Shown here in pieces: positions 25,387-41,923 of a stretch of 64,000 nucleotides of DNA. How positions within the stretch are numbered: the stretch's first letter is position 1; each line of letters begins with the position of its first letter. Below the pieces are notes generated by a model. That model was not told the origin of the DNA, ran no database searches, and was given only the letters and a program-made list of their open reading frames with translations. This DNA comes from an uncultured Craurococcus sp. (GTDB lineage: Bacteria > Pseudomonadota > Alphaproteobacteria > Acetobacterales > Acetobacteraceae): positions 124,001-188,000 of the forward strand of contig CADCTD010000001.1 of assembly GCA_902805545.1 (NCBI GenBank), in the 5' to 3' direction. A program made the position numbers and the translations under genes.

Positions 25387-26382
25387 TCAGAGCTTCACCT
25401 TCAGCCAGTTGCCGATCTCGCCGACGATGCCGCGGCGGAAGGCGAGCACGCAGATGACGAAGATCACGCCCTGGATCACCGTCACCCAGGCGCCGAGCTC
25501 GGCCAGGTAGTTCTGCATCGTCACGATCACCGCCGCGCCCACCACCGGCCCGAAGACCGTGCCGAGGCCGCCCACCAGCGTCATCAGCACCACCTCGCCC
25601 GACATGGACCAGTGGACATCGGTCAGCGTGGCGATGCCGAAGACGATCGACTTGGTCGCCCCCGCGACGCCGGCAAGGCAGGCGGAGAGGATGAAGGCGA
25701 GCAGCTTGTAGTCATCCGTCCGGTAGCCGAGCGAGATCGCCCGCGGCTCGTTCTCGCGGATCGACTTCAGCACCATGCCATAGGGCGAGTGGATGATGCG
25801 GTGGATCATCAGGAAGCCGAGGAGGAAGATGCCGGCGACGACCCAGTAGAGCGTCAGGTCCCGGTCGAGCGGGACGATGCCGAGGAGGGTGCCGCGCGGG
25901 ATGGCCTGGATGCCGTCCTCGCCGCCGGTGAAGGGCAGCTGGACGCAGAGGAAGTAGATCATCTGCGCCAGCGCCAGGGTGATCATGGCGAAGTAGATGC
26001 CCTGGCGGCGGATCGCCACCCAGCCGGCGACGGCGCCGAGCACCGCCGCCGTCGCGCCACCGGTGATGATGGCAAGTTCCGGCGTCAACCCCCAGACCTT
26101 CGCCGCATGGCCGGCGAGGTAGCCGCCCATGCCGAAATAGGCGGCATGGCCGAAGCTCAGCAGCCCGACATAGCCGATCAGCAGGTTGAAGGCGCAGGCG
26201 AAGAGGGCGAAGCAGAGCAGCTTCATCAGGAAGACGGGGTAGAGCAGGAAGGGCCCGACCGCGAGGATGACCAGCATCACCCCGAGGGCGCCGAACTGCG
26301 CCCGGGAGAAACCCCAGATGCCGTGATCCTCGGCCGCGGGGGCCGGGATCGAGTTGGCGGTGATGGCGGTGGTATCGGCCAT
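25387..26382 (-). CDS. livM: Branched-chain amino-acid-type ABC permease LivM
   Basis: This 331-aa inner-membrane permease has about eight to ten hydrophobic segments and the LivM pattern: NLLIGYVGLLSFGHAAYFGMGGY near 65, GIYFAMITLALAQMIYF near 130 and SIRENEPRAISLGYRTDDYKL near 210 as the ATPase-contact loop. It is the last gene of the minus-strand liv operon and starts one base after the livH stop. It pairs with LivH in the membrane. The ligand is set by the binding proteins, not by this subunit. Confidence 0.92.
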   Translation of the reverse strand: MADTTAITANSIPAPAAEDHGIWGFSRAQFGALGVMLVILAVGPFLLYPVFLMKLLCFALFACAFNLLIGYVGLLSFGHAAYFGMGGYLAGHAAKVWGLTPELAIITGGATAAVLGAVAGWVAIRRQGIYFAMITLALAQMIYFLCVQLPFTGGEDGIQAIPRGTLLGIVPLDRDLTLYWVVAGIFLLGFLMIHRIIHSPYGMVLKSIRENEPRAISLGYRTDDYKLLAFILSACLAGVAGATKSIVFGIATLTDVHWSMSGEVVLMTLVGGLGTVFGPVVGAAVIVTMQNYLAELGAWVTVIQGVIFVICVLAFRRGIVGEIGNWLKVKL

Positions 26383-26383
26383 G

Positions 26384-27268
26384 TCAGGCCCTCCCGAAGA
26401 GGCCGGCGGGACGTGCGAGCAGCACGATCGCCATGATGACGAAGATGACGGTCGCCGAGGCCTCCGGATAGAAGACCTTGGTCAGCCCCTCGACGATGCC
26501 GAGGCCGAAGCCGGTGATGATCGAGCCGAGGATGGAGCCCATGCCGCCGATCACCACCACCGCGAAGACCACGATGATCAGGTTGGTTCCCATCTGCGGG
26601 TTGACCGAATAGATCGGCGCCGCGAGCACGCCCCCAATCGCCGCCAGCGCCACGCCGAAGCCGTAGGTCAGCGTCACCATGCGGGGGACGTTGACGCCGA
26701 AGGCCTGGACAAGCGGCGCGTTCTCGGTCGCGGCGCGGAGATAGGCGCCGAGCCGCGTCTTCTCGATGATCAGCCAGGTCGCAAGGCAGAGGACGAGGGC
26801 CGCGATCACCACCCATCCGCGATAGATGGGGAGGAACATGAAGCCGAGGTCCCAGGCGCCCTGCAGCTCGGCAGGGATGCGGTAGGGCAGGCCGGAGGAG
26901 CCGAACTGGTTGCGGAACACGCCCTCGATGATGAGGCCGAGGCCGAAGGTCAGCAGCAGGCCGTAGAGATGGTCGAGCTTGTAGAGCCGGCTGATCATCA
27001 GCCGCTCCAGCACCACGCCGGTGAAGCCGATGATGATGGGCACCAGCACCAGCGCCCACCAGTAGTTCAGCCCGGCCCATTCCAGCAGCATCCAGGCGGC
27101 GAAGGCGCCCATCATGAACTGCGCGCCATGGGTGAAGTTGATGATGTTGAGCAGGCCGAAGATCACCGCCAGCCCCAGCGACATCATCGCGTAGAAGGCG
27201 CCGTTGATGAGGCCGAGCAGCAGCTGCCCGAAGAGCAGCGGTGCGGGGATGCCGAAGATGTCGTCCAT
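26384..27268 (-). CDS. livH: Branched-chain amino-acid-type ABC permease LivH
   Basis: The protein is 294 aa and very hydrophobic, with LivH signatures GLINGAFYAMMSLGLAVIFGLLNIINFTHGAQFMMGAF near 17-55 and GLRAATENAPLVQAFGVNVPR-like EAA loop near 190. It forms the translocation pore with LivM. It lies 15 bases after the last of the four binding-protein genes. Confidence 0.92.
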   Translation of the reverse strand: MDDIFGIPAPLLFGQLLLGLINGAFYAMMSLGLAVIFGLLNIINFTHGAQFMMGAFAAWMLLEWAGLNYWWALVLVPIIIGFTGVVLERLMISRLYKLDHLYGLLLTFGLGLIIEGVFRNQFGSSGLPYRIPAELQGAWDLGFMFLPIYRGWVVIAALVLCLATWLIIEKTRLGAYLRAATENAPLVQAFGVNVPRMVTLTYGFGVALAAIGGVLAAPIYSVNPQMGTNLIIVVFAVVVIGGMGSILGSIITGFGLGIVEGLTKVFYPEASATVIFVIMAIVLLARPAGLFGRA

Positions 27269-27283: not shown

Positions 27284-28507
27284 TTAAGTTCGAACGAAGG
27301 GGCAGCCGCCTTCGGCGAGCGGGCGGGCGGCCTCCTCGGCCGGGGTGGTGGCGACGAGTTTATGCACATCGAAGGGGCCGCGGCTCTCGGCCGGCGACTT
27401 CACCTGGAAGAGATAGCCGGGCGTGAGCTTGCGGCCATCCTCGCGGATGCGCCCTGGCCCGAAGGCGTCGTCGTCGCAGGGAATCGCCTTCATGCGGTTG
27501 ACGACATCGAGGCCGGAGGCGCGGGCGCGCTCGACGCCAAGGTCCTTCACCGCCTTCAGGTAGTGCAGCGTGACGCCGTAGCAGCCGGCGCAGGAGGCAT
27601 GGACCACGCCGCCCTGGCGCTTGCTCTTCACCCGCTCGGCGAAGGCGCGGGTGCGGTCGTTCAGGTCCCAGTAGAAGCTCTCGGTCATCAGCAGGCCCTG
27701 CGCCTCGGGCAGGCCGAGGGCGATGCTGTCGACCACCGTCATCAGCAGGCAGGCGAGCTTCGTGCTGCCCCGCGTCAGGCCGAACTCGCGGGCCTGCTTG
27801 ATGCAGTTGATGAGGTCCGCACCCGCATTGGCAAGGCCGACGACCTTGGCGCGCGAGGACTGCGCCTGGAGCAGGAAGGAGGAGAAATCCGTCGTCGCCG
27901 GAAAGGGGTAGCGCGCCGCGCCGAGCACCTTGCCGCCAGCGGCCTCGACGAAGCGGGAGGTATCGGCCTGGAGCGCATGACCGAAGGCATAGTCGGCGGT
28001 GATGAAGAACCAGCTATCCGCCCCCTGCTTCACCAGCGCATCACCCGTGCCCTTGGCGAGCATGTAGGTGTCGTAGGTGAACTGGACGCTGTTCGGGCTG
28101 CATTGCGCGCCGGAGAAGACGGTGGAGCCGACGCCGGAGCCGAGCACCACCTTGTTCTTCTCGCGCGCGATGCCGGAGACGGCGAGCGCGACCGCGCTGT
28201 TGGGCAGGTCGATGATCGCCTCGACGCCCTCGCGGTCGAACCATTGCCGGGCGATATTGGCACCGACATCCGGCTTGTTCTGGTGGTCGCCGACGATGAT
28301 CTCGACGGCGATGCCGGTCGCGGCCGAGAATTCCTCGGCCGCCTGGCGGGCGCCGGCGAAGCTGCCGGGGCCCGTCAGGTCGCGATAGGGGCCGGACATG
28401 TCGGTGAGGACGCCGAGGCGGAGCGGGCCGCCTTGCGCCCTCGCCCGGCCCCCGGCCAGGGCGAGGCCGCTGCCGGCCAGCAAGAGGTTGCGGCGGTGCA
28501 GCGGCAT
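27284..28507 (-). CDS. Liv-type ABC substrate-binding protein, copy 1 (most divergent)
   Basis: This 407-aa periplasmic binding protein belongs to the LivJ/Peripla_BP_6 type. The track ORF is too long; ATG 28507 begins the signal MPLHRRNLLLAGSGLALAGG with an RR pair. The mature part reads LRLGVLTDMSGPYRDLTGPGS, then DHQNKPDVGANIARQWFDREGV and WFFITADYAFGHALQADTSRFV. The C-terminus is EGGCPFVRT, where the other three copies end CSLVRS. It lies five bases after copy 2 and precedes livH. The ligand is unknown; the family binds amino acids, amides, urea and aromatic acids. Confidence 0.88.
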   Translation of the reverse strand: MPLHRRNLLLAGSGLALAGGRARAQGGPLRLGVLTDMSGPYRDLTGPGSFAGARQAAEEFSAATGIAVEIIVGDHQNKPDVGANIARQWFDREGVEAIIDLPNSAVALAVSGIAREKNKVVLGSGVGSTVFSGAQCSPNSVQFTYDTYMLAKGTGDALVKQGADSWFFITADYAFGHALQADTSRFVEAAGGKVLGAARYPFPATTDFSSFLLQAQSSRAKVVGLANAGADLINCIKQAREFGLTRGSTKLACLLMTVVDSIALGLPEAQGLLMTESFYWDLNDRTRAFAERVKSKRQGGVVHASCAGCYGVTLHYLKAVKDLGVERARASGLDVVNRMKAIPCDDDAFGPGRIREDGRKLTPGYLFQVKSPAESRGPFDVHKLVATTPAEEAARPLAEGGCPFVRT

Positions 28508-28512
28508 TGCCC

Positions 28513-29742
28513 TCAGCTCCGCACGAGGGAACAGCCACCCTCGTTCATCGGGCGGAAGGCCTCCGTCGCCGGGGTGGTCTGGAGCAGCTTGTAGTAGTCC
28601 CACGGGCCCTTGCTCTCGGCCGGCGACTTCACCTCGAAGAGGTAGGAGGGGCAGAGCTTGCGCCCATCCGCGCGGATGGTGCCCGCGCCGAAGGCGTCGT
28701 CGTCGCAGGGCATCGCCTTCATGCGGTTGATGACCTCGACGCCCGACGCTTTGGAGGCCGCGACGCCCATATCCGCCACCGCCTTCAGGTAGTGCAGGGT
28801 GCAGGAGTAGTTGGCGATGGAGGCCATGTTCGGCCGCACATCCTTCAGGCGCGGGCGCAGCCGCTCCGACACCGCGCGGGTGCGGTCATTCAGGTCCCAG
28901 TAGAAGCTCTCGGTCAGCACCAGGCCCTGCGCGGTCCGCAGGCCGATCGCATGGACATCGGGGAGGAACATCAGCAGCGCCGCCAGCTTCACGCCGCCGC
29001 GGGTGACGCCGAATTCGGCCGCCTGCTTGATGCTGTTGATGGTGTCAGCACCGGCATTGGCGAAGCCGATGACCTTGGCGCGGGAGGCCTGGGCCTGCAG
29101 CAGGAAGGAGGAGAAGTCCGAGGTCGCCGGGAAGGGGTATTTGACGCTGCCGTTCACGCGGCCGCCCGCGGCCCTGATGAAGTTGGTCGTGTCCCGCTCC
29201 AGCGCATGGCCGAAGGCATAGTCGGCGGTGATGAAGAACCAGCTGTCGCCGCCCGCCTTCACCATGGCGCCGCCGGTCGACTTGGCGAGCATGTAGGTGT
29301 CGTACATCCAGTGGATGGTGGTCGGGCTGCACTGCGCGCCGGTCAGGTCGGATGTCGCCGAGCCGGTGTTGATATAGGCCTTGTTCTTCTCGCGGGCGAC
29401 ATTGTTGACCGCGAGGCCGACCGAGCTGGTCGGCACGTCGATGATGAGGTCGACGCCCTGGTCGTACCACTGGCGCGCGATATTCGCGCCGACATCCGGC
29501 TTGTTCTGGTGGTCGGCGGCGATGACCTCGACGGCGAAGCCTTTGTCGCCGAACTCCTGCACCGCCTGGCGGGTGCACTCGATGCCGTAGGGGCCGCTGA
29601 TGTCGCGATAGGCGCCGGACTGGTCGTTGAGCACGCCGATGCGGATGGTGTTGGCGGCCTGCGCCCGGCCGAGGCGCGGCAGGGCGGGCATCAGCGTGGC
29701 GCCGACCGAGGCGGTCAGCAGGCTGCGGCGGGTCGGGGTCAT
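28513..29742 (-). CDS. Liv-type ABC substrate-binding protein, copy 2
   Basis: This is a 409-aa paralogue. The signal MTPTRRSLLTASVGATLMP contains TRRSLL, a Tat-like or Sec signal, and the mature start is NTIRIGVLNDQSGAYRDISGP. The ligand-site region SATSDLTGAQCSPTTIHWMYDTYML and VIGFANAGADTINSIKQAAEFG are shared with copy 3. Differences cluster in the middle of the C-terminal lobe (RLRPRLKDVRPNMASIANYSC), consistent with altered ligand preference. It is cotranscribed with its neighbours. Confidence 0.9.
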   Translation of the reverse strand: MTPTRRSLLTASVGATLMPALPRLGRAQAANTIRIGVLNDQSGAYRDISGPYGIECTRQAVQEFGDKGFAVEVIAADHQNKPDVGANIARQWYDQGVDLIIDVPTSSVGLAVNNVAREKNKAYINTGSATSDLTGAQCSPTTIHWMYDTYMLAKSTGGAMVKAGGDSWFFITADYAFGHALERDTTNFIRAAGGRVNGSVKYPFPATSDFSSFLLQAQASRAKVIGFANAGADTINSIKQAAEFGVTRGGVKLAALLMFLPDVHAIGLRTAQGLVLTESFYWDLNDRTRAVSERLRPRLKDVRPNMASIANYSCTLHYLKAVADMGVAASKASGVEVINRMKAMPCDDDAFGAGTIRADGRKLCPSYLFEVKSPAESKGPWDYYKLLQTTPATEAFRPMNEGGCSLVRS

Positions 29743-29759
29743 CTCTCGCGTCTTTCCTC

Positions 29760-30989
29760 TCAGCTACGGACCAGGGAGCAGCCGCCCTCGGTGATCGGGC
29801 GGAAGGCTTCCTCGGCCGGGGTGGTTTGCAGCACCTTGTAGTAGTCCCACGGGCGCTTCGACTCCGCCGGGGACTTCACCTCCAGCAGGTAGGAGGGGCA
29901 GAGCTTCCGCCCGTCGGCACGGATGGTCCCGGGCCCGAAGGCATCGTCCTCGGTGGGCACCGCCTTCATGCGGTTGACGACCTCGGTCCCGGAGGCCTTG
30001 GCCGCGGCGACGCCCATGGCCTGCACCGCGCGCAGGTAGTGCAGCGTCGCCGAGTAGCAGCCGGCATGGATCTGGTTGGGGTAGAGGTTCGGCATCCGCG
30101 GCAGCACGCGTTGCGTGAAGGCGCGGGTGCGGTCGTTGAGGTCCCAGTAGAAGCTCTCGGTGCAGACCAGACCCTGCCCCGTCTCGAGGCCGATGGAATG
30201 CACGTCGGTGATGAACATCAGCATCGCCGCGAGCTTGGTGCCGCGCCGGGTGAGGCCGAATTCCGCCGCCTGCTTCACGCAGTTGATGGTGTCGGACCCG
30301 GCATTGGCGAAGCCGATGACCTTGGCGCGGGAGCTCTGCGCCTGGACGAGGAAGGAGGAGAAATCCGTCGTCGCCGGGAAGGGCGTGCGCACGGCGCCGA
30401 GCACGCGCCCGCCCGAGGCGCGGACGAAATTGCTGGTGTCCCGCTCCAGCGCATGGCCGAAGGCATAGTCGGCGGTGATGAAGAACCAAGTATCGCCGCC
30501 TGCCTTCACCATGGCGCCGCCGGTCGACTTCGACAGCATGTAGGTGTCGTAGGCCCAGTGGATCATGGTCGGCGCGCATTGCGCCCCGGTCAGGTCCGAG
30601 GTGGCAGAGCCGACATTGAGGTTCACCTTATTTTTCTCGCGGGCGACGTTGTTGACCGCGAGGCCGACCGAGCTGGTGGGGACGTCGAGGATCATGTCGA
30701 CGCCCTGGTCGTACCATTGCCGGGCAATGTTCACCCCGACATCCGGCTTGTTCTGGTGGTCGGCGAAGACCATCTCGACATTGAAGCCCTGTTGGCCGAA
30801 CTCCGTGACCGCCTGCTGCGCGCAGGCGACGGAGCTCGGGCCGGTATTGTCCTTGTAGGTGCCGGACATGTCGTTCAGCACGCCGATGCGGATGGTATTC
30901 GCCGCCTGGGCCCGTGTGAGCCGCGGCAGCGATACCGCCGCCGCGGCCGCGGCACCGGTGGCAAGCAGGCCTCTCCTCGTGGTCGTCAT
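29760..30989 (-). CDS. Liv-type ABC substrate-binding protein, copy 3
   Basis: The protein is 409 aa, closest by eye to copy 2. The signal is MTTTRRGLLATGAAAAAAVSLP, and the mature start is NTIRIGVLNDMSGTYKDNTGP. Conserved blocks are DHQNKPDVGVNIARQWYDQGVD, SATSDLTGAQCAPTMIHWAYD and FYWDLNDRTRAFTQRV. The lobe-2 segment PRMPNLYPNQIHAGCYSATLHY differs from copy 2. It is a periplasmic ligand receptor for the same LivHM permease. Confidence 0.9.
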   Translation of the reverse strand: MTTTRRGLLATGAAAAAAVSLPRLTRAQAANTIRIGVLNDMSGTYKDNTGPSSVACAQQAVTEFGQQGFNVEMVFADHQNKPDVGVNIARQWYDQGVDMILDVPTSSVGLAVNNVAREKNKVNLNVGSATSDLTGAQCAPTMIHWAYDTYMLSKSTGGAMVKAGGDTWFFITADYAFGHALERDTSNFVRASGGRVLGAVRTPFPATTDFSSFLVQAQSSRAKVIGFANAGSDTINCVKQAAEFGLTRRGTKLAAMLMFITDVHSIGLETGQGLVCTESFYWDLNDRTRAFTQRVLPRMPNLYPNQIHAGCYSATLHYLRAVQAMGVAAAKASGTEVVNRMKAVPTEDDAFGPGTIRADGRKLCPSYLLEVKSPAESKRPWDYYKVLQTTPAEEAFRPITEGGCSLVRS

Positions 30990-31055
30990 GTCCGTCTCCC
31001 TGTTCGGCGCGGGGCCGGGCGATGCATGGCCGCCCGGTCTCCCATGGTCTTTGGC

Positions 31056-32285
31056 CTAGCTGCGGACCAGCGAGCAGCCGCCTTCGTTCACCGGGCGGAA
31101 GGCCTCGTCGGCCGGGGTTGTCTGCAGCAGCTTGTAGTAGTCCCAGGCGCCCTTGCTCTCGCCCGGGGTCTTCACCTCGAAGAGATAGGCGGGGCAGAGC
31201 TTCCGGCCGTCCTCGCGGATGCGGCCCGGCCCGAAGCAGTCATCGTCGGTCGGCATGGCCTTCATGCGGGCGACCGTCGCGGCGCCGTCCTGCTTCGCCT
31301 GGGCGGCGCCCATATCGGCCACCGTCTTCAGGTAGTGCAGCGCTGCGCTGTAGCAGCCGGCATGGGACATCGCGGGCATGGCGCCGGCGAGCTGCGGCTT
31401 GACGCGGTTGGTGAAGGCGCGGGTGCGGTCGTTGAGGTCCCAGTAGAAGGTCTCGGTCAGCACCAGGCCCTGCGCCGCCTGGAGGCCAAGCGCATGCACG
31501 TCGTTCAGGAACATCAGCAGCACGGCGATCTTGGTACCGCGCCGGGTGATGCCGAACTCGGCCGCCTGCTTCACCGTGTTGACGGTGTCGGCGCCGGCAT
31601 TGGCCAGGCCGATCACCTTGGCGCGCGAGGACTGCGCCTGGACGAGGAAGGAGGAGAAGTCCGTATTGCCGAGCGGCGCACGCACGCCGCCGACGATGCG
31701 CCCGCCGGCCGCCTTGACGAAATTGGTCGTGTCCCGCTCCAGCGCATGGCCGAAGGCATAGTCGGCGGTGATGAAGAACCAGTCGGTCCCGCCCGCCTTC
31801 ACCATTGCGCCGCCGGTCGACTTCGCCAGCATGTAGGTGTCATAGGTCCAGTGGACGGTGTTCGGCGAGCATTGCGAGCCGGTGAGGTCCGCCGTCGCCG
31901 AGGTGGAGTTCAAGTAGACCTTGTTCTTCTCGCGCACCACGCCGTTGACCGCGAGGCCCACCGCGCTGTTCGGCACGTCGACGATGACATCGACGCCGTC
32001 GCGGTCGATCCATTGCCGGGCGATGTTGCTGCCGACATCGGGCTTGTTCTGGTGGTCGCCGATGATGACCTCGACATTGAAGCCGCGGCTGCCGATATCC
32101 TGGATGGCCTGGCGGACGCAGGCGACCGAGGTCGGGCCGGAGATGTCGCGGTAGACGCCGGACTGGTCGTTCAGCACGCCGATCTTCAAGGTCGGCCCGC
32201 CCTGGGCGCGGCCGGTGCCGGCAAGGGCGAAGGGGGCGGCAGCGGCGCCGGTCAGCAGGCTGCGGCGATCAAGCGACATTACCAT
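31056..32285 (-). CDS. Liv-type ABC substrate-binding protein, copy 4
   Basis: The protein is 409 aa from ATG 32285, where AGGAG lies five bases upstream and the length equals copies 2 and 3; the track start is ten codons longer. The signal is MVMSLDRRSLLTGAAAAPFALAG, and the mature start is LKIGVLNDQSGVYRDISGP. Here TSATADLTGSQCSPNTVHWTYD replaces the equivalent ligand-site block. It is the first binding protein in the operon, 19 bases after livF. The gap to copy 3 is the largest of the set (66 bases). Confidence 0.9.
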   Translation of the reverse strand: MVMSLDRRSLLTGAAAAPFALAGTGRAQGGPTLKIGVLNDQSGVYRDISGPTSVACVRQAIQDIGSRGFNVEVIIGDHQNKPDVGSNIARQWIDRDGVDVIVDVPNSAVGLAVNGVVREKNKVYLNSTSATADLTGSQCSPNTVHWTYDTYMLAKSTGGAMVKAGGTDWFFITADYAFGHALERDTTNFVKAAGGRIVGGVRAPLGNTDFSSFLVQAQSSRAKVIGLANAGADTVNTVKQAAEFGITRRGTKIAVLLMFLNDVHALGLQAAQGLVLTETFYWDLNDRTRAFTNRVKPQLAGAMPAMSHAGCYSAALHYLKTVADMGAAQAKQDGAATVARMKAMPTDDDCFGPGRIREDGRKLCPAYLFEVKTPGESKGAWDYYKLLQTTPADEAFRPVNEGGCSLVRS

Positions 32286-32304: not shown

Positions 32305-33037
<733 letters not shown>

Positions 33038-33045
<8 letters not shown>

Positions 33046-33814
33046 GGGCCATCGCTCCTTCGGGGGTGGCTTCGGTGCCGAGATAGGCGGCGATGACGTC
33101 GGGGTTGCGGGAAACCTCGGCGTAGTCGCCCTCGGCGAGGACGCTGCCGCGGGCGAGCACGGTGATGCGGTCGCAGAGGCCTGAGACGACCTTCAGGTTG
33201 TGCTCCACGAGAAGCACGGTGCGGCCGGCGGAGACGCGCTTCACCAGCGCCACGATGCGGTCGACATCCTCATGCGCCATGCCGGCGGTGGGCTCGTCGA
33301 GCAGCATCATCGCCGGGTCCATGGCCAGCGTCGTCGCGATCTCGAGGGCGCGCTTGCGGCCATAGGGCAGCTCGCCAGCCTGGATGCGGGAATAGGCAGT
33401 GAGGCCGACATCCTCGAGCAGCGCCATGGCGCGGTCGTCGAACTGCCGCAGCAGGCCCTCCGAGCGCCAGAAATCGAAGCTGCCGCCGCGCTGGCGCTGC
33501 AGCGCGACCCGGACGTTCTCCAGCACGGAGAGATGCGGGAAGACGGCCGAGATCTGGAAGCTGCGCACCAGGCCGAGGCGGGCGACCTCGGCCGACTTCA
33601 TCCCGGTGATATCCTTGCCGTCGTAGCGGATGGTGCCGCGTGTCGGCTGAAGGAATTTCGTCAGCAGGTTGAAGCAGGTGGTCTTGCCGGCGCCGTTCGG
33701 GCCGATCAGGCCATGGATGCTGCCGCGCCGGACCTTCAGGGCGACGTCGTTCACGGCGACGAAACCCCGGAATTCCTTCGTCAGCCCCTCGGTTTCCAGG
33801 ATGGAATCTGTCAC
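33038..33814 (-). CDS. livG: Branched-chain amino-acid-type ABC ATPase LivG
   Basis: The protein is 258 aa from GTG 33814, which has GGGGAGA about ten bases upstream. The track ORF adds over 100 residues that run antisense into the phosphodiesterase gene. Walker A is GPNGAGKTTCFNLL, and FLQPTRGTIRYDGKDITGM and VRSFQISAVFPHLSVLENV are LivG-type. The signature Gly-rich loop is weak (LPYGRKRALEIATTLA), as is usual for LivG, and Walker B is MMLLDEPTAGMAHEDV. It is the first gene of the operon. Confidence 0.92.
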
Positions 33815-33956: not shown

Positions 33957-34703
33957 TCAGCCGCGCAGGCGGAGCGCGAGCGGCGGGTCGTCGGTGGCGA
34001 TGGCATCCATGCCGAGGGCGAAGCCCCGCCGGATCGTCCCCTCGTCATTGGTGCCCCAGGCACTGACGCCGAGACCGGCGGCGCGGATCGCGGCAACCGA
34101 GGCCTCGTCCCAATCGGCGATCGTGAGGCCGAGCTCCCCGGCATGGCAGGCGCGCGAGAGGGCGACGGCGCTCTCCGGCCCCATGCCGTGCCAGGAGCGG
34201 CTGCCCATCAGCAGCACCAGCCGGTGGAAGCCGCCGGCAGCGGCGGCCGCAGCGACGGTCATCGGCTCAAAGCTCATCAGCACGGTGCGGCCGCGCATGC
34301 CGGCAGCGTCGAGCGCCGCGAGGCAGGCCGGCACGATGCCGGGATAGGGCCGGCCCGTGCCATCCGCCTTGATCTCGAGGCGGAGGATGCGCCCCGCCTG
34401 CCGCACCAGCGCCACGGTCTCGGCGAGGCCCGGCACCCCCTCCCCGCCCGTGCCCTTCAGTCGGGTCCGGCGCAGCTCGGCCATGGTCCGGGCGCGGACC
34501 GGGCCGGTGCCGTCGGTGGTGCGATCAAGCGTCGCGTCATGAATGACGGCGACCTCGCCATCAGCGGCCAGGTGGACGTCGATCTCGAGCTGCTCGGCCG
34601 GCAGGGCCAGCGCCTGGCGGAAGGCGAGCAGGCTGTTCTCCGGCCAGAGGATCGCGCCGCCGCGGTGGCTGGCGATCTCCGTCCCTATGCGTCCAGCAGC
34701 CAT
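33957..34703 (-). CDS. Glycerophosphodiester phosphodiesterase
   Basis: This 248-aa TIM-barrel enzyme of the GDPD family cleaves glycerophosphodiesters to glycerol-3-phosphate and an alcohol. Active-site residues visible are His13-Arg14 (SHRGG), Glu22-Asn23 (PENSLLAF), Glu40 and Asp42 (LEIDVHL) and His55 (VIHDATLDRTTDG). There is no signal peptide, so it is a cytoplasmic type. The start overlaps the end of egtD by 19 bases, which suggests transcription with the ergothioneine genes, though there is no known link in function. Confidence 0.9.
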   Translation of the reverse strand: MAAGRIGTEIASHRGGAILWPENSLLAFRQALALPAEQLEIDVHLAADGEVAVIHDATLDRTTDGTGPVRARTMAELRRTRLKGTGGEGVPGLAETVALVRQAGRILRLEIKADGTGRPYPGIVPACLAALDAAGMRGRTVLMSFEPMTVAAAAAAGGFHRLVLLMGSRSWHGMGPESAVALSRACHAGELGLTIADWDEASVAAIRAAGLGVSAWGTNDEGTIRRGFALGMDAIATDDPPLALRLRG

Positions 34704-35635
34704 ACCGAAAAGAGCCCTTCCGCATCCGTCCAGGGCCGGCTTATGCGCCAGCCGGCGGCGGCGGCCAAGCCGGCGAGGCGCTCCGGCCGGTACTTGTGGC
34801 TGCTCTCGGTATGGATGGTCTCGCCCTCGGCGAAGCGGATGGTCCGGCCGGCGAGGCGCACGGATTGCGCCCGCCCGGAGACGAGATGCATCTCGACCCG
34901 CTCCAGCGCGGCATTCCAGACGGCGCGATGGCGGAAGGCGGCAATGTCGAAATCGGCACCGGCCTCGCGGTTGAGGCGGTGCAGCAGGTTGAGGTCGAAG
35001 GCGGCGGTGACGCCGGCGGCATCGTCATAGGCGGCCTCCAGCACCGCGGGTGCCTTCACCAGGTCGGCTCCGAGCAGCAGCCGCGCCCCCGCGCCGAGCG
35101 TCGTCCGTGCGCGGCGAAGGAAGGCGACAGCGCCCTCCGGCTCGAAATTGCCGATGGTCGAGCCAGGGAAGAATCCGAGCCGCGGCGCCGTGCCGAGCCG
35201 CCCCGGCAGGGCGAAGGGCAAGGTGAAGTCGGCGACGACCGGCAGGACCGGCAGGCCGGGACAGGCGAGGGCGACGCGGCTCGCCGCGCCTTCCAGCCAT
35301 TCGGGGGCGATATCGACCGGCACATAGGCGGCCGGGCGGTCGAGGCCAGCGAGCAGCAGCGCCGCCTTGGCGCCGTCGCCCGGGCCGAACTCGATGACGG
35401 CGCGGCCAGGCCCGACGGCCTCGGCGATGGAGGCGGCCTCCTCGGTCAGGATCCGCGTCTCCGTCCGGGTCGGATAGTATTCCGGCAGGCGGGTGATGGC
35501 CTCGAAAAGGCGGCAGCCCTCGGCATCGTAAAGCCACTTGCAGGGCAGCGTCTTCCGCGGGGCGGTGAGGCCGGCGAGCGCATCGGCGATGAGGGCGGCG
35601 CGCTGACCGGAGGCGGCGTCGATCGCGGCGCTCAC
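34685..35635 (-). CDS. egtD: L-histidine N-alpha-methyltransferase EgtD
   Basis: The protein is 316 aa from GTG 35635, which overlaps the egtB stop (GTGA). It matches the histidine-specific SAM methyltransferase family: KWLYDAEGCRLFEAITRLPEYYPTRTE near 35-60, SAM site VIEFGPGDGAKA near 80, and PGSTIGNFEPEGAVAFLR near 158. It trimethylates histidine to hercynine, the first step of ergothioneine synthesis. Its partner egtB is directly upstream. The track's longer start lies inside egtB. Confidence 0.93.
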   Translation of the reverse strand: MSAAIDAASGQRAALIADALAGLTAPRKTLPCKWLYDAEGCRLFEAITRLPEYYPTRTETRILTEEAASIAEAVGPGRAVIEFGPGDGAKAALLLAGLDRPAAYVPVDIAPEWLEGAASRVALACPGLPVLPVVADFTLPFALPGRLGTAPRLGFFPGSTIGNFEPEGAVAFLRRARTTLGAGARLLLGADLVKAPAVLEAAYDDAAGVTAAFDLNLLHRLNREAGADFDIAAFRHRAVWNAALERVEMHLVSGRAQSVRLAGRTIRFAEGETIHTESSHKYRPERLAGLAAAAGWRISRPWTDAEGLFSVWLLDA

Positions 35636-36822
35636 GCCGCATCCTCCGCGAGGCGCAGGCCGGTGAACTGCCAGCGGGCATCGGGCGGGAAGAAATTGCG
35701 GTAGCCCGGCCGGACATGGCCGGGCGGCGTGGCAAGCGAGCCGCCGCGCAGCACCATCTGCCCGATCATGAACTTGCCGTTGTACTCGCCGACCGCGCCC
35801 TCCCAGGGGCGGAAGCCGGGATAGGGGCGATAGGCGCTGCCGGTCCATTGCCAGGCGACATCGCGCGCCTGGAGGAAGCCGGGGATGTCCTGCGCCGCCT
35901 CCCATTCCGCCTCGGTCGGCAGGCGGCGGCCAGCCCAGCGGGCATAGGCCTCCGCCTCGTACCAGGAGACGTGGCGGACGGGCGCCGCGGGGTCGAGCGG
36001 ACGGAGACCAGCGAGGGTGAACTGGCTCCAGCCGCCCTCACGCCGGTGCCAATGCAGCGGGGCCTGCCATTCCTCGGCCTGGGCGCGCGCCCAACCTTCG
36101 CTCATCCAGAGCATCGCGGTCCGGTAGCCGCCATCCGCCATGAAGTCGAGCCACTCGCCATTCGTCACCAGCCGGTCGGCGATGCGGTAGGGTTCCAGCC
36201 AAACCTTGTGGCGCGGCGTCTCGTTGTCAAAGGCGAAGCCGGGGCCGGCGCTGCCGATCTCGCCGAGGCCCGCGGGCCCGTCGAGCATGCGGGCCGGGCC
36301 GGGAACGGAGGCCGGCTCGCGCCAGTCCGAATCATAGGTGGGCTGCAGCGGATTTTGCGCCAGGGCGTGCAGGATGTCGGTCAGCAGCAACTCCTGGTGT
36401 TGCTGCTCATGCTGCAGGCCAAGCTCGACCAGCGGCAGGACCTCGGCCGGCGGGTCCTCCAGCAGCCGGGCCATGGCGGCATCGACATTGGCGCGATAGG
36501 CGCCGACCTCGGCGGCGGAGGGGCGCGTCAGCATGCCGCGCTTCGGCCGGGCATGGCGCGGGCCGGCGGCCTCGTAATAGGAGTTGAAGAGGTAGGCGAA
36601 CTCCTCGCGGAAGCGACGGTGGCCCGGACGATGCGGCAGCAGCAGGAAGGTCTCGAAGAACCAGGTGACATGCGCCCGATGCCACTTCGCGGGGCTGGCA
36701 TCCGGCATGGACTGGATGGTCTGGTCCTCGGGGGAGAGCGGTGCGGCGAGCTTCTCCGTATGGGCGCGAACGGCAGCATAGCGGGCGGCCAGGGCGGAGA
36801 CGCCGGTATCGAGGAGGGTCAT
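35632..36822 (-). CDS. egtB: Hercynine sulfoxide synthase EgtB
   Basis: The protein is 396 aa from ATG 36822 with GAAGG upstream; the track ORF is far too long. The DinB-like N-terminal domain holds the iron ligands His51 (RAHVTWFFE) and the HxxxHxE motif His138/His142/Glu144 (QHEQQHQE). The C-terminal half is the formylglycine-generating-enzyme fold (HVSWYEAEAYARWAGRRLPTEAEWE, then GGSLATPPGHVRPGYRNFFPP). It joins hercynine to cysteine or gamma-glutamylcysteine with O2. No egtA, egtC or egtE gene is in the window. Confidence 0.93.
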   Translation of the reverse strand: MTLLDTGVSALAARYAAVRAHTEKLAAPLSPEDQTIQSMPDASPAKWHRAHVTWFFETFLLLPHRPGHRRFREEFAYLFNSYYEAAGPRHARPKRGMLTRPSAAEVGAYRANVDAAMARLLEDPPAEVLPLVELGLQHEQQHQELLLTDILHALAQNPLQPTYDSDWREPASVPGPARMLDGPAGLGEIGSAGPGFAFDNETPRHKVWLEPYRIADRLVTNGEWLDFMADGGYRTAMLWMSEGWARAQAEEWQAPLHWHRREGGWSQFTLAGLRPLDPAAPVRHVSWYEAEAYARWAGRRLPTEAEWEAAQDIPGFLQARDVAWQWTGSAYRPYPGFRPWEGAVGEYNGKFMIGQMVLRGGSLATPPGHVRPGYRNFFPPDARWQFTGLRLAEDAA

Positions 36823-36935: not shown

Positions 36936-39206
36936 CTAACCACCTGGCGTGACGTTTTGTCGAGCGGCCTCCTCCCAGGCATGACGCAGCGCGGCGGCGA
37001 GGCCGCGGGCGAAGCGCGGGGCATCGGTGAGCGGCGAGGCCGCAACGCGCTGGCGCATCCCCCCCCGCAGGGCGGCGAGCGCCGGCAGATCCCGCGCCCG
37101 TGCGATGGCCTGGGTGACGTATGCCTCCACATCCGCCACCGCCCAATCGGCAAGGCCTACATTGCTCAGGTGGCTGAACGCATGCCGGGCACAGAAACTG
37201 TCCCCCACCATGGCGAGGACGGGCACGCCCATCCACAGCGCCTCGCAGACCGTCAATCCGCCAGTATAGGGGAAGGGATCGAGCGCGATGTCGATATCGC
37301 CATAAGCGCCCATGAGCTCGCGGTGCGGCACGCCACCCTCGAGCGCGACCCGCGCCATCGGCAGCCCGGCGGCGGCGAGGCGAGCGGCGGTGCGGGTGCG
37401 CGTCGCCAGCTCGCTGAGGCCATGGGTGCGCAGCACCAGCCGCGCCTCCGGCAGGGCGGCCAGGATGCCCGACCAGGCGGCGAGCACCGGCGCCGTCAGC
37501 TTGGCGAGGTTGTTGAAGCAGCCGAAGGTGACGGCGCCGCGGCCAAGCGCCGGCAAGGGTGCGACCGGCGGCGCATAGGGCGGCGGCGTGTAGCAGACGT
37601 AGCCGTCCGGCAGACGCAGCAGGCGCTCGGTATAGTGCGGCTCCGAGCCGGGGGGCGTCTCCCACCAGTCGGTCAGCATCCAGTCGCAGGCCGCGAGGCC
37701 GAGCGTCGAGAACTGCGCGCCGACCCATTTCACCTGCACCGGCGCCGGGCGATGCCGCAGCACGAAGGGCCGGCCGCCTTCACCATAGCCGCCGAGCTCC
37801 ATCAGGATGTCGATCCCGTCCTCGGCGATCCGGGCTGCGATGGCGGCGTCGTCCAGTGGACCGACCTCGCGCCAACGGGCGCAGCGAGCGCGGAAGCGGG
37901 CGGCGAGCGGATCCGTGCGCGGCTTCAGGGAGTAGGCTGTGAGCTCGAACTCCCCCTCCGGCAGCGCCTCCAGCCCGGCGAGCGTCAGCCAGCCGACCGG
38001 ATGGCGGCCCAGATTGCCCGAGAGCAGACCCAGGCGCAGGGGCCCGCCGCCCTGCCGCCGCCGGGCGACGAGCGGCGCGGCGGGCGGCAGGGCGGCATCG
38101 ACCGCCTCCGCCGCGACCCGGAGCCCGGCGGCGGTGCCGCAGACCGGGTGATAGGGCAGGACGGCGACGCGGTTGACGAGAGCGGCGGCCCCTCCCCCCT
38201 GCAGCGAGGCGTCGGCGGCGGCGAGCGCCGCCTCCTGCTCGCCCAGCGTGTTCAGGGCGAGCGCCTGGTTCAGCAGCAGCGTCGGATGCGGGCCGAATTC
38301 GGCGATGGCGGCGGCGAGGACGTCGAGCATCGCCGAGTTGCGGCCGGACTTCCACAGCACGGTCGCCAGCCGGTTATGCAGGTCGACATCGCTCGGCCGG
38401 GCGGCGATGGCGGCGCGAAGGGTTGCCTCCGCCTCCTCCTGCTGGCCGGCATCGGCGAGGGCATGGCCGAGCGGCGCCAGGATGTCCGGGGAATTCGGCG
38501 CGAGCATCCGAGCCATGCGCAGTTCGGCGAGGGCGGCGGCGGGGCGGCCGGCGGCCGCGTGCAGGGCGGCAGCGGCGAGTGACCAGCCAGCGGCGAAGGG
38601 CTCCGCCTCCGCCCGGGCGGCGATCTCGGCGAGGGCTGCCTCGGCGCCCAGCCGGGCCAGGCTCGCCTCGGCGAAGAGCTTGGCGGCGCCGGCATGGGCC
38701 GGCCGCGTGGCGAGGATGGCGGCGGCGCCGGCGGCGGCGGCTTCGGGGCGGCCTTCGGCGAGGTCGAGGCGCGCGAGGGCGAGCTTGAGCTCCGGCTCCT
38801 CCGGGTCGATGGCGTGGGCGGCGCTCAGCAGGGCGCGGCCCTCGGCCCGGTCGCCGGCCTCGATCGCCAGCGCGGCGAGAGCGGCATGGGCCGGTACATG
38901 CCGGGGGTCGCGGGCGAGGGCGGCGCGGAAGAGCGCCATGGCGCCGGCCGCGTCCTCGCGCAGCCCGGCGATGGTGCCGAGGCGGAAGGGCGGCTCCGCC
39001 TGATCCGGCAGTGCCGCCATGGCCGCCTGCAGATGCGGCTCCGCCTCAGCGAGGCGGCCAAGATCCTGCAGGGCGAGGCCCAGGTTGAGCCGTGCCCAGG
39101 CGCCCTGCACCGGGTCCGCGAGCGCGACAGTGAGCGGGGCGAGCGCGGCCTCCGGCCTGCCGGCCTGCAACGCCTCCAGCCCGGCGCGATAGGCGGACGC
39201 GCCCAT
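36936..39206 (-). CDS. TPR protein with GT41 O-GlcNAc-transferase-like domain
   Basis: The product is 756 aa. Residues 1-320 are TPR-like helical repeats (LGLALQDLGRLAEAEPHLQAA and similar). Residues 350-750 match the SPINDLY/OGT C-terminal catalytic region: FGCFNNLAKLTAPVLAAWSGIL, then DIALDPFPYTGGLTVCEALWMGVPVL and ARHAFSHLSNVGL. Such enzymes transfer a sugar from a nucleotide sugar to Ser/Thr of proteins. It is the last gene of an operon with flagellin, flaF and a TPR methyltransferase, so flagellin is the probable acceptor. The donor sugar is unknown. Confidence 0.85.
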   Translation of the reverse strand: MGASAYRAGLEALQAGRPEAALAPLTVALADPVQGAWARLNLGLALQDLGRLAEAEPHLQAAMAALPDQAEPPFRLGTIAGLREDAAGAMALFRAALARDPRHVPAHAALAALAIEAGDRAEGRALLSAAHAIDPEEPELKLALARLDLAEGRPEAAAAGAAAILATRPAHAGAAKLFAEASLARLGAEAALAEIAARAEAEPFAAGWSLAAAALHAAAGRPAAALAELRMARMLAPNSPDILAPLGHALADAGQQEEAEATLRAAIAARPSDVDLHNRLATVLWKSGRNSAMLDVLAAAIAEFGPHPTLLLNQALALNTLGEQEAALAAADASLQGGGAAALVNRVAVLPYHPVCGTAAGLRVAAEAVDAALPPAAPLVARRRQGGGPLRLGLLSGNLGRHPVGWLTLAGLEALPEGEFELTAYSLKPRTDPLAARFRARCARWREVGPLDDAAIAARIAEDGIDILMELGGYGEGGRPFVLRHRPAPVQVKWVGAQFSTLGLAACDWMLTDWWETPPGSEPHYTERLLRLPDGYVCYTPPPYAPPVAPLPALGRGAVTFGCFNNLAKLTAPVLAAWSGILAALPEARLVLRTHGLSELATRTRTAARLAAAGLPMARVALEGGVPHRELMGAYGDIDIALDPFPYTGGLTVCEALWMGVPVLAMVGDSFCARHAFSHLSNVGLADWAVADVEAYVTQAIARARDLPALAALRGGMRQRVAASPLTDAPRFARGLAAALRHAWEEAARQNVTPGG

Positions 39207-40645
39207 CAGTGCGACGTCGGGTGGGCGAGGATCATCATTCCCTCGACCGGCTGGCTGCCATCGAGGCGGAGCAGCTCGTCACGCTGCTCGGTCACGGCGA
39301 GCCCGGCCTCGGCAAGGCAGCGGGCAACATAGTCCGGTGCGTGGGCGTAGCGGCCGGACGCGCCGAGGCGCCAGGGCTCGCCGCCCGGCGGCAGGCGCTC
39401 CAGGCTGAAGAGCAGTGCGCCATCGGGCGCCAGGGTCTCGCGGCAGAGGCGCATCACCTCCTCCAGCCGGCCGAGATAGATGAAGACGTCGGCGGCGACG
39501 ATCAGCGCATGGGGCGGCAGGCCCTCGCGCAGCGCGGCGGTGATCTCGGCCTGGCGGAGAGCCGCGTAGAGATGCTTCTGCGCCGCCTGCTCCAGCATGG
39601 CGCGGGAGAGGTCGATGCCGGTCAGCGGGCCGCCGAGCATGTCCGCGAGCACGACGCCGACGAGGCCGGTCCCGCAGCCGAGATCGAGCACCGGGCCGAG
39701 CTTCGCCCCGCCGGCGCCGACGGCCGGCCAATGGCGCTCCACGACCCGCCGCACCAGGCCGGGCACGCGGTAGCCGAGGGAGAGGAGCGACTGCTCGAAG
39801 CGCGGCGCATAGCCGTCGAACAGGGAGGCGACATAGCTCTCCGTCGCGCGCTCCGTCGCCTGCCCCGTCGCGGCGGCGGCGAGATGGGCGAGATAGCCGT
39901 CACCCGGCGACAGACGCGCGGCGGCGGTGAAATGCGGCCCGGCCTCGGCAAGGCGGCCCGCGCCGACCAGCGCATGGGCGAGGACGTTATGCAGCGAGCC
40001 ATCGGGAATGCCGGCTCCGAGGCCCGTTTCGGCCAGCGCGATGGCGGCTGCGGTGTCGCCAGCGAGCAGCGCGTTCTGCGCCTGCAAGGCGACGAAGCGG
40101 AGGTGTTCGGGAGCCTGGCTGCGGCAGAGGGCGAATTGCTCGGCGGCGGCCTCGTGGCGGCCGGCCAGCATGAAGGCCTGGCCGAGGCGGGCCCGCAGGC
40201 CGGCATCGGCGGGATTGACGCTGACCGCCTCGCCGAGGAACCAGATCGCCTCGTCGAAGCAGCGGGCCTCGAGCAGGGCGATGCCGAGCAGGGCCTTGGC
40301 GGGAGGGTCCCATGGCGTCGCCATCACCGCTGCGGCGGCATCGTCGATGGCGCCCTTCCCTTCGCCGCGGGCAAGGCGGATGCGCGCACGGACCTGCCGG
40401 GCGGCCGACCATTCGGGGTCGGCCTCCAGGGCCCGGTCGGCGGCTGCCTCGGCCTCCGGCAAACGCTCGAGCGCAGCAAGGGCCTCCGCCTGCAGCAGCG
40501 CCGCGGCAGGGGCGAGGCCGGGCAGGCGGCCAAGCCGGTCGACCATCGGCAGCGCCTCCTCCGGCCGGCGGTCCTGCAGGAGTTGGCGGGCGCCAGCATG
40601 GAGGCGGGCACCGAGGAGCGCAGCGGGCGCGGCGGCAATGGTCAT
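39206..40645 (-). CDS. TPR-repeat SAM-dependent methyltransferase
   Basis: The product is 479 aa. The N-terminal 260 residues are TPR-like (AEAEAAADRALEADPEWSAARQ, LRARLGQAFMLAGRHEAAAEQF). YVASLFDGYAPRFEQSLLSLGYRVP then leads into a class I methyltransferase with SAM motif LDLGCGTGLVGVVLADML near 330 and VAADVFIYLGRLEEV. The start has GGGAGAG, and the stop meets the GT41 gene as TGATG. Located between flaF and the glycosyltransferase, it may methylate the flagellin glycan or the flagellin itself; this is inferred from context. Confidence 0.8.
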   Translation of the reverse strand: MTIAAAPAALLGARLHAGARQLLQDRRPEEALPMVDRLGRLPGLAPAAALLQAEALAALERLPEAEAAADRALEADPEWSAARQVRARIRLARGEGKGAIDDAAAAVMATPWDPPAKALLGIALLEARCFDEAIWFLGEAVSVNPADAGLRARLGQAFMLAGRHEAAAEQFALCRSQAPEHLRFVALQAQNALLAGDTAAAIALAETGLGAGIPDGSLHNVLAHALVGAGRLAEAGPHFTAAARLSPGDGYLAHLAAAATGQATERATESYVASLFDGYAPRFEQSLLSLGYRVPGLVRRVVERHWPAVGAGGAKLGPVLDLGCGTGLVGVVLADMLGGPLTGIDLSRAMLEQAAQKHLYAALRQAEITAALREGLPPHALIVAADVFIYLGRLEEVMRLCRETLAPDGALLFSLERLPPGGEPWRLGASGRYAHAPDYVARCLAEAGLAVTEQRDELLRLDGSQPVEGMMILAHPTSH

Positions 40646-40657
40646 CGTGGCTCTCCC

Positions 40658-41005
40658 TCAGCGCCAGAGGGCGGCAGCGAAGTGGTCGTTCATCTCGGCT
40701 ACGAAGCCGAGATCGGGCTCCTCCCTGCCGCATTCGCGCAGCACCGCGATGGCGACGCCGGCGATGCTCGCGCGCAGCTCGGCCGGCAGGGCATTGGTCG
40801 GATCGATCACCGCACCCTGCACCGCATCCCAGAGGCGGCGGTTGTCTGCAAGGGCGCGGGCGCGGGCGAGCGGGCCACCATCGCGGCTCTCGCGGATGGC
40901 GCGGTTGGCGCGGGCGAAGACCTCGGCCTCCATCTGCCGCGTCGAGAGGCGACGGCGATAGGCGGCGGCGCCGCGATTGGCCTGGGTCTCGGTCTCGGGG
41001 GTCAT
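40658..41005 (-). CDS. flaF: Flagellar biosynthesis regulator FlaF
   Basis: The product is 115 aa, matching the alphaproteobacterial FlaF family: AAYRRRLSTRQMEAEVFARANRAI, then DNRRLWDAVQGAVIDPTNALPAELRASI. FlaF is needed for flagellin synthesis or secretion and works opposite FlbT, which represses flagellin mRNA. No flbT gene is present next to it, although the two are often adjacent. It lies 72 bases after flagellin and 12 before the methyltransferase, in one operon. Confidence 0.88.
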   Translation of the reverse strand: MTPETETQANRGAAAYRRRLSTRQMEAEVFARANRAIRESRDGGPLARARALADNRRLWDAVQGAVIDPTNALPAELRASIAGVAIAVLRECGREEPDLGFVAEMNDHFAAALWR

Positions 41006-41077
41006 GCGCAGCGTTCCTTCCTGGAGGGGTGCGCGGTCTCAGCCAATGGCCGGCCTCCTGCCGGCCTGGCCGCCGCC

Positions 41078-41923
41078 TTAGCGGAACAGGCTCAGCAGCG
41101 TCTGCGGTGCCTGGTTGGCGATGGAGAGTGCCTGGGTGCCGAGCTGCTGGCGGATCTGCAGCGATTGCAGCGTCGCCGACTCCTTCGCCAGGTCGGCATC
41201 GACCAGCGCGCCGATGCCGGCCTGCTGCGCGTCGATCTTCGCCTTGTTGTAGTTGATCTGGCTGTCGATGAAGTTCGAATAGCTGCCGAAGTTGTTGAGC
41301 TGGCTCAGCGTGTTGGTGATGGCCTTGGAGACGGCGCCGCCCTTGGTCAGGGCGTTGGAGGCATCGCTCCGGCTCCAGGCATTGGCGCCGGAGACCAGGT
41401 TGTAGATGTTGGCCATCCCGCTGTAGCTGTTGAAGCTGTAGGTGTCGCCCTTGCCGTTGCGCACCACCTTGTTGCTGGCGGCGGGCGGGGGCGTCGCCGA
41501 CTCGTTCAGCACGTTGGTGCCGTTGTAGGTGGCGTCCTTGATGAAGGACTGGATGTTGTTCGTCAGCTCCTTCACCTGGGCCTTGTACTGGTCCCGCTGC
41601 TCGGCGGAGATGCTGCCATCGGCCATCTTCACCGTCACCGTCTGCAGCTTCTGCAGCGTATCGGAGACGTTCTGCAGGCTTGCGGAGGTGACGTCGATCA
41701 GCCCCTTGGCACCGCCGAGCTGCTCATTGGCGGAGGTATTGGCCGCGACCTCGCCCCGCACGCGCTCGGCGACGGCATAGGCAGCGCCGTCGTCCTTGGC
41801 GTCCGCGACGCGGTAGCCGGTGGAGATGCGCTTCTGCGTGACGGCGAGCGCCTCGGCGGTGTTGTTGAAGGAGGCCAGCGCCACCTGGGCGCCGGCGTTG
41901 GTGATGACGGAGTTCAGCGGCAT
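41078..41923 (-). CDS. Flagellin
   Basis: The product is 281 aa, the filament subunit exported by the flagellar type III system without a signal peptide. The N-terminal D0/D1 region reads SVITNAGAQVALASFNNTAEAL and TQKRISTGYRVADAKDDGAAYAVAERVR. The C-terminal D1/D0 region reads FIDSQINYNKAKIDAQQAGIGALVDADLAKESATLQ and ends NQAPQTLLSLFR, the standard end. The short central part (130-200) is rich in Ser, Thr and Asn, suitable for O-glycosylation by the GT41 enzyme. The 5' leader contains a CCCGG-TTCGT-CCGGG hairpin. Confidence 0.95.
   Translation of the reverse strand: MPLNSVITNAGAQVALASFNNTAEALAVTQKRISTGYRVADAKDDGAAYAVAERVRGEVAANTSANEQLGGAKGLIDVTSASLQNVSDTLQKLQTVTVKMADGSISAEQRDQYKAQVKELTNNIQSFIKDATYNGTNVLNESATPPPAASNKVVRNGKGDTYSFNSYSGMANIYNLVSGANAWSRSDASNALTKGGAVSKAITNTLSQLNNFGSYSNFIDSQINYNKAKIDAQQAGIGALVDADLAKESATLQSLQIRQQLGTQALSIANQAPQTLLSLFR

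Follow-up and report, generated by a model that had tools for sequence, protein, structure and literature searches.

Why should a single importer operon carry four receptor genes? In the 64,000-nucleotide stretch analysed here, hereafter the window (assembly GCA_902805545.1, contig CADCTD010000001.1, positions 124,001 to 188,000, from an uncultured Craurococcus sp.), four homologous genes for Liv-type binding proteins lie side by side within one LivGFHM set, and the question is whether they give one permease several specificities or several versions of the same one. Judging from sequence comparisons, we consider it probable that the operon encodes a multi-receptor Liv (HAAT) importer, in which four receptors with distinct, related ligands would serve one LivHM-LivGF permease.

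Four Intact Receptor Genes in One Operon

Two permeases of the BPD_transp_2 family and two ATPases of the ABC type are encoded in the operon, as in a Liv/HAAT-type ABC importer, and the receptor block is placed between livG/livF and livH/livM with all genes on the minus strand (Table 1). All four receptors matched Peripla_BP_6 (319-343 bits against a Pfam cut-off of 31.7), and each is a complete open reading frame of 408-409 amino acids, with pairwise identities of 76% between B and C, 71% between A and C, 70% between A and B, and 62% between D and each of the other three. Reading frames, Pfam matches and gene order thus confirm the initial annotation of four adjacent, homologous, diverged and intact receptor genes with one LivGFHM set, the arrangement of a multi-receptor ABC importer, and the frameshifts that it had named as a sign against this reading are absent from all four copies. 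Decay of window receptors to pseudogenes was excluded by the intact frames together with the purifying selection described below. The urea importer UrtABCDE was also rejected, since the receptors scored at most 49 bits against a UrtA cut-off of about 493. Nor did the operon match the classical LivJ/LivKHMGF importer of branched-chain amino acids, its permease and ATPase staying below the curated LivH (91.5 of 379 bits) and LivG (204.9 of 362 bits) cut-offs.

Table 1. Features of the importer operon, in window coordinates.
Feature	Position	Strand	Evidence or remark
livG-type ATPase gene	33038..33814	-	PF00005 and BCA_ABC_TP_C
livF-type ATPase gene	32305..33045	-	PF00005
Receptor A (type A)	31056..32285	-	Peripla_BP_6, 343 bits; type by trees
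A-B intercistronic gap with CCGGGCG...CGCCCGG stem-loop	30990..31055	-	
Receptor B (type B)	29760..30989	-	Peripla_BP_6, 329 bits; AlphaFold2 model pLDDT 89.8
Receptor C (type C)	28513..29742	-	Peripla_BP_6, 319 bits
Receptor D (type D, most divergent, last slot)	27284..28510	-	Peripla_BP_6, 326 bits
livH-type permease gene	26384..27268	-	BPD_transp_2
livM-type permease gene	25387..26382	-	BPD_transp_2

The gaps A-B, B-C and C-D measure 66, 17 and 2 bp, and no terminator-like site was found on the minus strand within the operon, so that a single transcript is likely. The A-B gap holds a GC-rich stem-loop that could stabilise the upstream mRNA; it is present in relatives with changed sequence, where its fold beats shuffled sequences in some cases (z -2.1 to -4.8). 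The window fold was no better than its shuffles (z -0.28), and with no Rfam match either, a conserved RNA signal was rejected. All four receptors begin with a twin-arginine-like RR-x-LL signal, and both arginines are invariant across 37 diverse relatives, from which we infer that the receptors would be exported by the Tat route.

The livG reading frame reaches 34144, and its probable start, judged from the start-region sequence, is the GTG at 33814, a position that is the same in relatives; the longer frame runs too far and enters the GDPD gene. This gene and egtD, encoding a histidine methyltransferase of ergothioneine synthesis, lie directly upstream of livG (33957-35905) and are kept in four other Belnapia loci. 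Further along the window, at 36936-41923, genes for a TPR-glycosyltransferase (Glyco_transf_41), a TPR-methyltransferase, FlaF and flagellin follow one another, possibly a row for flagellin modification.

Array Size and Gene Order in Relatives

The source genome groups with Belnapia, with 93% matches in several Belnapia species, and the same four-gene run was present in all six near-complete congeneric genomes searched, indicating that the array is not a chance arrangement. As the initial annotation had proposed, conservation was also followed beyond the genus, using 77 loci fetched from other genomes together with the window, 57 of which hold a complete operon (Roseomonadaceae/Acetobacteraceae). 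The array recurs in the wider family, and 57/57 complete operons follow the order livG-livF-[receptors]-livH-livM. Intact receptors number one (8 operons), two (5), three (19), four (12), five (9) or six (2), counts that are not to be read as frequencies because similarity to receptor B was the basis on which loci were collected and near-identical MAGs are included; two further complete operons carry extra broken copies. The single-copy MAG loci L078 and L085, which are placed among three-copy relatives, may be assembly collapses. Copies in two overlapping partial frames were seen in L055 (7171-8498 and 12203-13624) and L096 (9234-10507), and represent broken genes or sequencing errors.

Outgroup operons of Agrobacterium and Pseudosulfitobacter have the identical order with a single receptor, which in Agrobacterium is 65% identical to receptor A. 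The simplest history would start from one ancestral receptor gene that was repeatedly duplicated at its original site, the window operon being an old expansion of livG-livF-S-livH-livM to four receptors.

Receptor Types Older Than the Genera

In trees of 238 and of 101 receptors, the array receptors form about ten types, which are mostly one-to-one across genera and stand in a largely fixed order. Bootstrap support was 98-100% for eight types, 90 for type A and 78 for type H. The window and Belnapia share the order A-B-C-D, Paeniroseomonas has A-B-C-E, Roseicella F-A-B-C-E or A-B-C-E, many Roseomonas MAGs A2-B-C, and Neoroseomonas H-I-B-F-E, G-A2-C-B-E or G-A2-H-C-B-E. Types E and D always occupy the last slot, B usually stands ahead of C (C precedes B in two loci), and the position of F and H differs between genera. 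Type D was found only in Belnapia and one Paracraurococcus, and since a single D + E clade was not rejected (p-AU 0.487), D may be a fast-evolving form of the last-slot receptor. Since orthologous types span genera, the types must have arisen before the genera did, and recent tandem duplication was excluded as the origin of the copies. In the wider family, about ten ancient types would have been gained, lost or moved with gene order largely kept.

The source genome also holds a type F receptor (G000:C7:12763-13980; locus L152:4758-5987) without an adjacent permease, a type that is first in some arrays of other genera; it has 66-67% matches with similar frame length in four other congeneric genomes. 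Contigs C65, C133, C178, C182 (two) and C76 encode six more members of this receptor subfamily, which share 48-60% identity with B; the one on C133 adjoins hydantoinase A/B-type genes. A possible extension, which we put forward tentatively, is that throughout Roseomonadaceae/Acetobacteraceae the array is a modular cassette, in which about ten ancient types, each with its own ligand, form ordered sets with one to six members. Whole receptor units would be gained, lost or relocated, and those that have left the array, such as the orphan type F receptor, would go on feeding the permease in trans. One could also argue that part of the array works chiefly with other Liv permeases or in sensing, and that co-expression is the only reason for its place in this operon, as subfamily receptors occur on other contigs and at least one of them, type F, lacks an adjacent permease. 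However, the array lies strictly between livF and livH in every complete operon and the single-receptor outgroups share this layout, making this explanation highly doubtful.

Selection on the Copies

Mean dN/dS of the A, B, C and D orthologues in six Belnapia was 0.108, 0.077, 0.120 and 0.131, respectively; this comparison, which the initial annotation had suggested, indicates that all four copies are under purifying selection. Copies within an array differ by dN 0.23-0.27 at dS 0.35-0.8, compared to 0.10-0.19 for orthologues from different genera in matching dS bands, giving a dN 1.4-2.2 times higher at equal dS, an excess that is a relative statement since codon bias compresses dS. Signs of gene conversion were few and mostly in a strongly conserved segment. 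Concerted evolution was rejected, with short signals only, mostly around residues 150-200 in two loci (L047/L062).

Distribution of Differences and the Predicted Pocket

The initial annotation had placed the differences between the copies in the second lobe. This was contradicted by the count of sites that vary among the four copies: 109/188 in lobe 1 and 82/190 in lobe 2, a higher density in lobe 1 (Fisher p 0.004). We assigned the lobe boundaries from the secondary structure of an AlphaFold2 model of receptor B, whose input alignment had 37 rows taken from the window and from relatives. The strongest type-separating sites are grouped at residues 38-52, 101-108, 122-127, 254-258 and 297-312. 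Among the top 40 such sites, 13 fall in topologically defined cleft loops against 6.2 expected (p 0.004), whereas over all sites the cleft loops showed no significant excess of type information (p 0.48).

Ligand contacts of LivJ, taken from a docking paper (PMC6983066), were mapped onto the receptors by a weak profile alignment (hhalign probability 71.6) and not by coordinates. By this mapping, type information averaged 0.71 bits at the contact equivalents and their neighbours compared to 0.40 overall (p 0.0007; shifted masks 0.011), and variation is not indifferent to the predicted ligand cleft; an even spread away from the cleft is what the initial annotation had named as speaking against a widened ligand range. 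All four receptors share S105 (LivJ Ser79), F176 and A229. Of the LivJ ligand-residue pair Ser79 and Thr102, the weak profile alignment has only Ser79 kept, the Thr102 equivalent being Ala or Gly in the four receptors. These patterns are best read as a common framework of the predicted pocket surrounded by type-specific neighbours.

The shared framework, together with the 155/378 sites that are identical across all 24 Belnapia receptors, would also suit copies that bind one compound class and differ in affinity, or in the pH, salt or temperature at which they work, or that raise receptor dosage. Simple dosage, however, predicts similar copies, whereas the types were already distinct when the genera diverged and have stayed at 62-76% identity, gene conversion has left few signs, and type-specific residues surround the predicted pocket; we regard this explanation as unlikely. 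Purifying selection, the dN excess and the enrichment around the pocket would instead favour several specificities for one permease. According to this multi-receptor model, four periplasmic receptors, exported by Tat if their RR signals are functional, would dock to and share one LivHM-LivGF permease. Each would be specific for its own compound among several related small molecules, which would be the reason why purifying selection maintains all four, and the cell would thereby widen its substrate range without multiplying permeases.

Comparison With Known Multi-Receptor Importers

In E. coli, LivJ and LivK bind branched-chain amino acids and share the LivHMGF permease. This locus resembles the window operon in having more than one receptor gene, but it has only two, with panZ between them, located before the permease genes. 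Rhodopseudomonas palustris RPA3723-3725 are three receptors of 60-71% identity clustered with ABC transporter genes, two of them with different binding profiles and one that bound nothing tested (PMC3223731), and a window copy may accordingly be non-binding as well. The likeness lies in closely related receptors clustered with transporter genes; the difference is that the triplet was reported as specific to Rhodopseudomonas/Bradyrhizobium, and that no series of one to six receptors was found described for it (PMC3223731). Together with the E. coli pair, the triplet makes the earlier statement that Liv operons normally have one receptor too strong. Borrelia burgdorferi has five non-redundant receptors, OppA1-5, for a presumptive primary Opp permease, and the three tested act at different stages (PMC7822543). 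Here, too, several diverged receptors would serve one permease, with three of them clustered with it, but they belong to the oligopeptide (Opp) family and another receptor fold cluster, and two are encoded elsewhere.

Given these parallels, the multi-receptor principle was already known. A limited search of open-access literature retrieved the R. palustris case as the only tandem Liv receptors and no description of a family-wide ordered series of one to six. The array is thus a real, conserved arrangement of a known principle, and the ordered series is the part not found described. If our reading is true, related species offer a natural series of one importer with 1, 2, 3, 4, 5 or 6 receptors, in which one can ask how a permease accepts many receptors and how receptor specificity splits, and which would show how far the receptor repertoire, and not the number of permeases, sets the substrate range.

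Clues to the Ligands

By sequence, the nearest solved structures are 3i09 and 3n0w, followed by 4maa. The model of B aligned with 3i09 (Burkholderia mallei BMA2936) at 47% identity and TM 0.87 and with 3n0w (B. xenovorans Bxe_C0949) at 38% and TM 0.84, both described as single proteins; the structural ranking after 3i09 was 3n0w, 4maa, 4zpj and the R. palustris aromatic-acid receptors 4evs, 4evq and 4eyg. E. coli LivJ ranked well below these, its open form also lowering its rank. Following this ranking, 'Liv-type' is apt for the fold and the operon and should not be taken to mean leucine, isoleucine or valine, which are unlikely as main ligands, and the annotation 'branched-chain amino acid' is unsafe for such operons.

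Arrays of Roseicella, Paracraurococcus and Siccirubricoccus have amidohydrolase, AA_synth, MarR and Mo-hydroxylase-type genes as neighbours. These genes, found immediately upstream of livG at as many as nine loci, resemble parts of nicotinate clusters, raising the idea that the array imports nicotinate or another pyridine carboxylate. In the source genome, however, their homologues are found on a separate contig, next to another Liv-type transporter. This locus (L159; G000:C126:76000-94000) holds a 6-hydroxynicotinate reductase homologue with MarR, amidohydrolase and AA_synth genes and its own Liv-type transporter, and is a probable nicotinate-type catabolic cluster whose transporter uses another receptor family. 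The receptor of that transporter shares 59% identity with its counterpart in a Comamonadaceae 6-hydroxynicotinate cluster, and this counterpart has no more than a partial-length match to receptor A, at 25% identity. Since the source genome has this separate nicotinate-type transporter, the adjacency in sister genera is a weak lead only, and we find it very unlikely that the array imports nicotinate or other pyridine carboxylates. The single-receptor operon of Agrobacterium is surrounded by CoA-ligase and acyl-CoA genes, a neighbourhood that would fit carboxylic acids as ligands.
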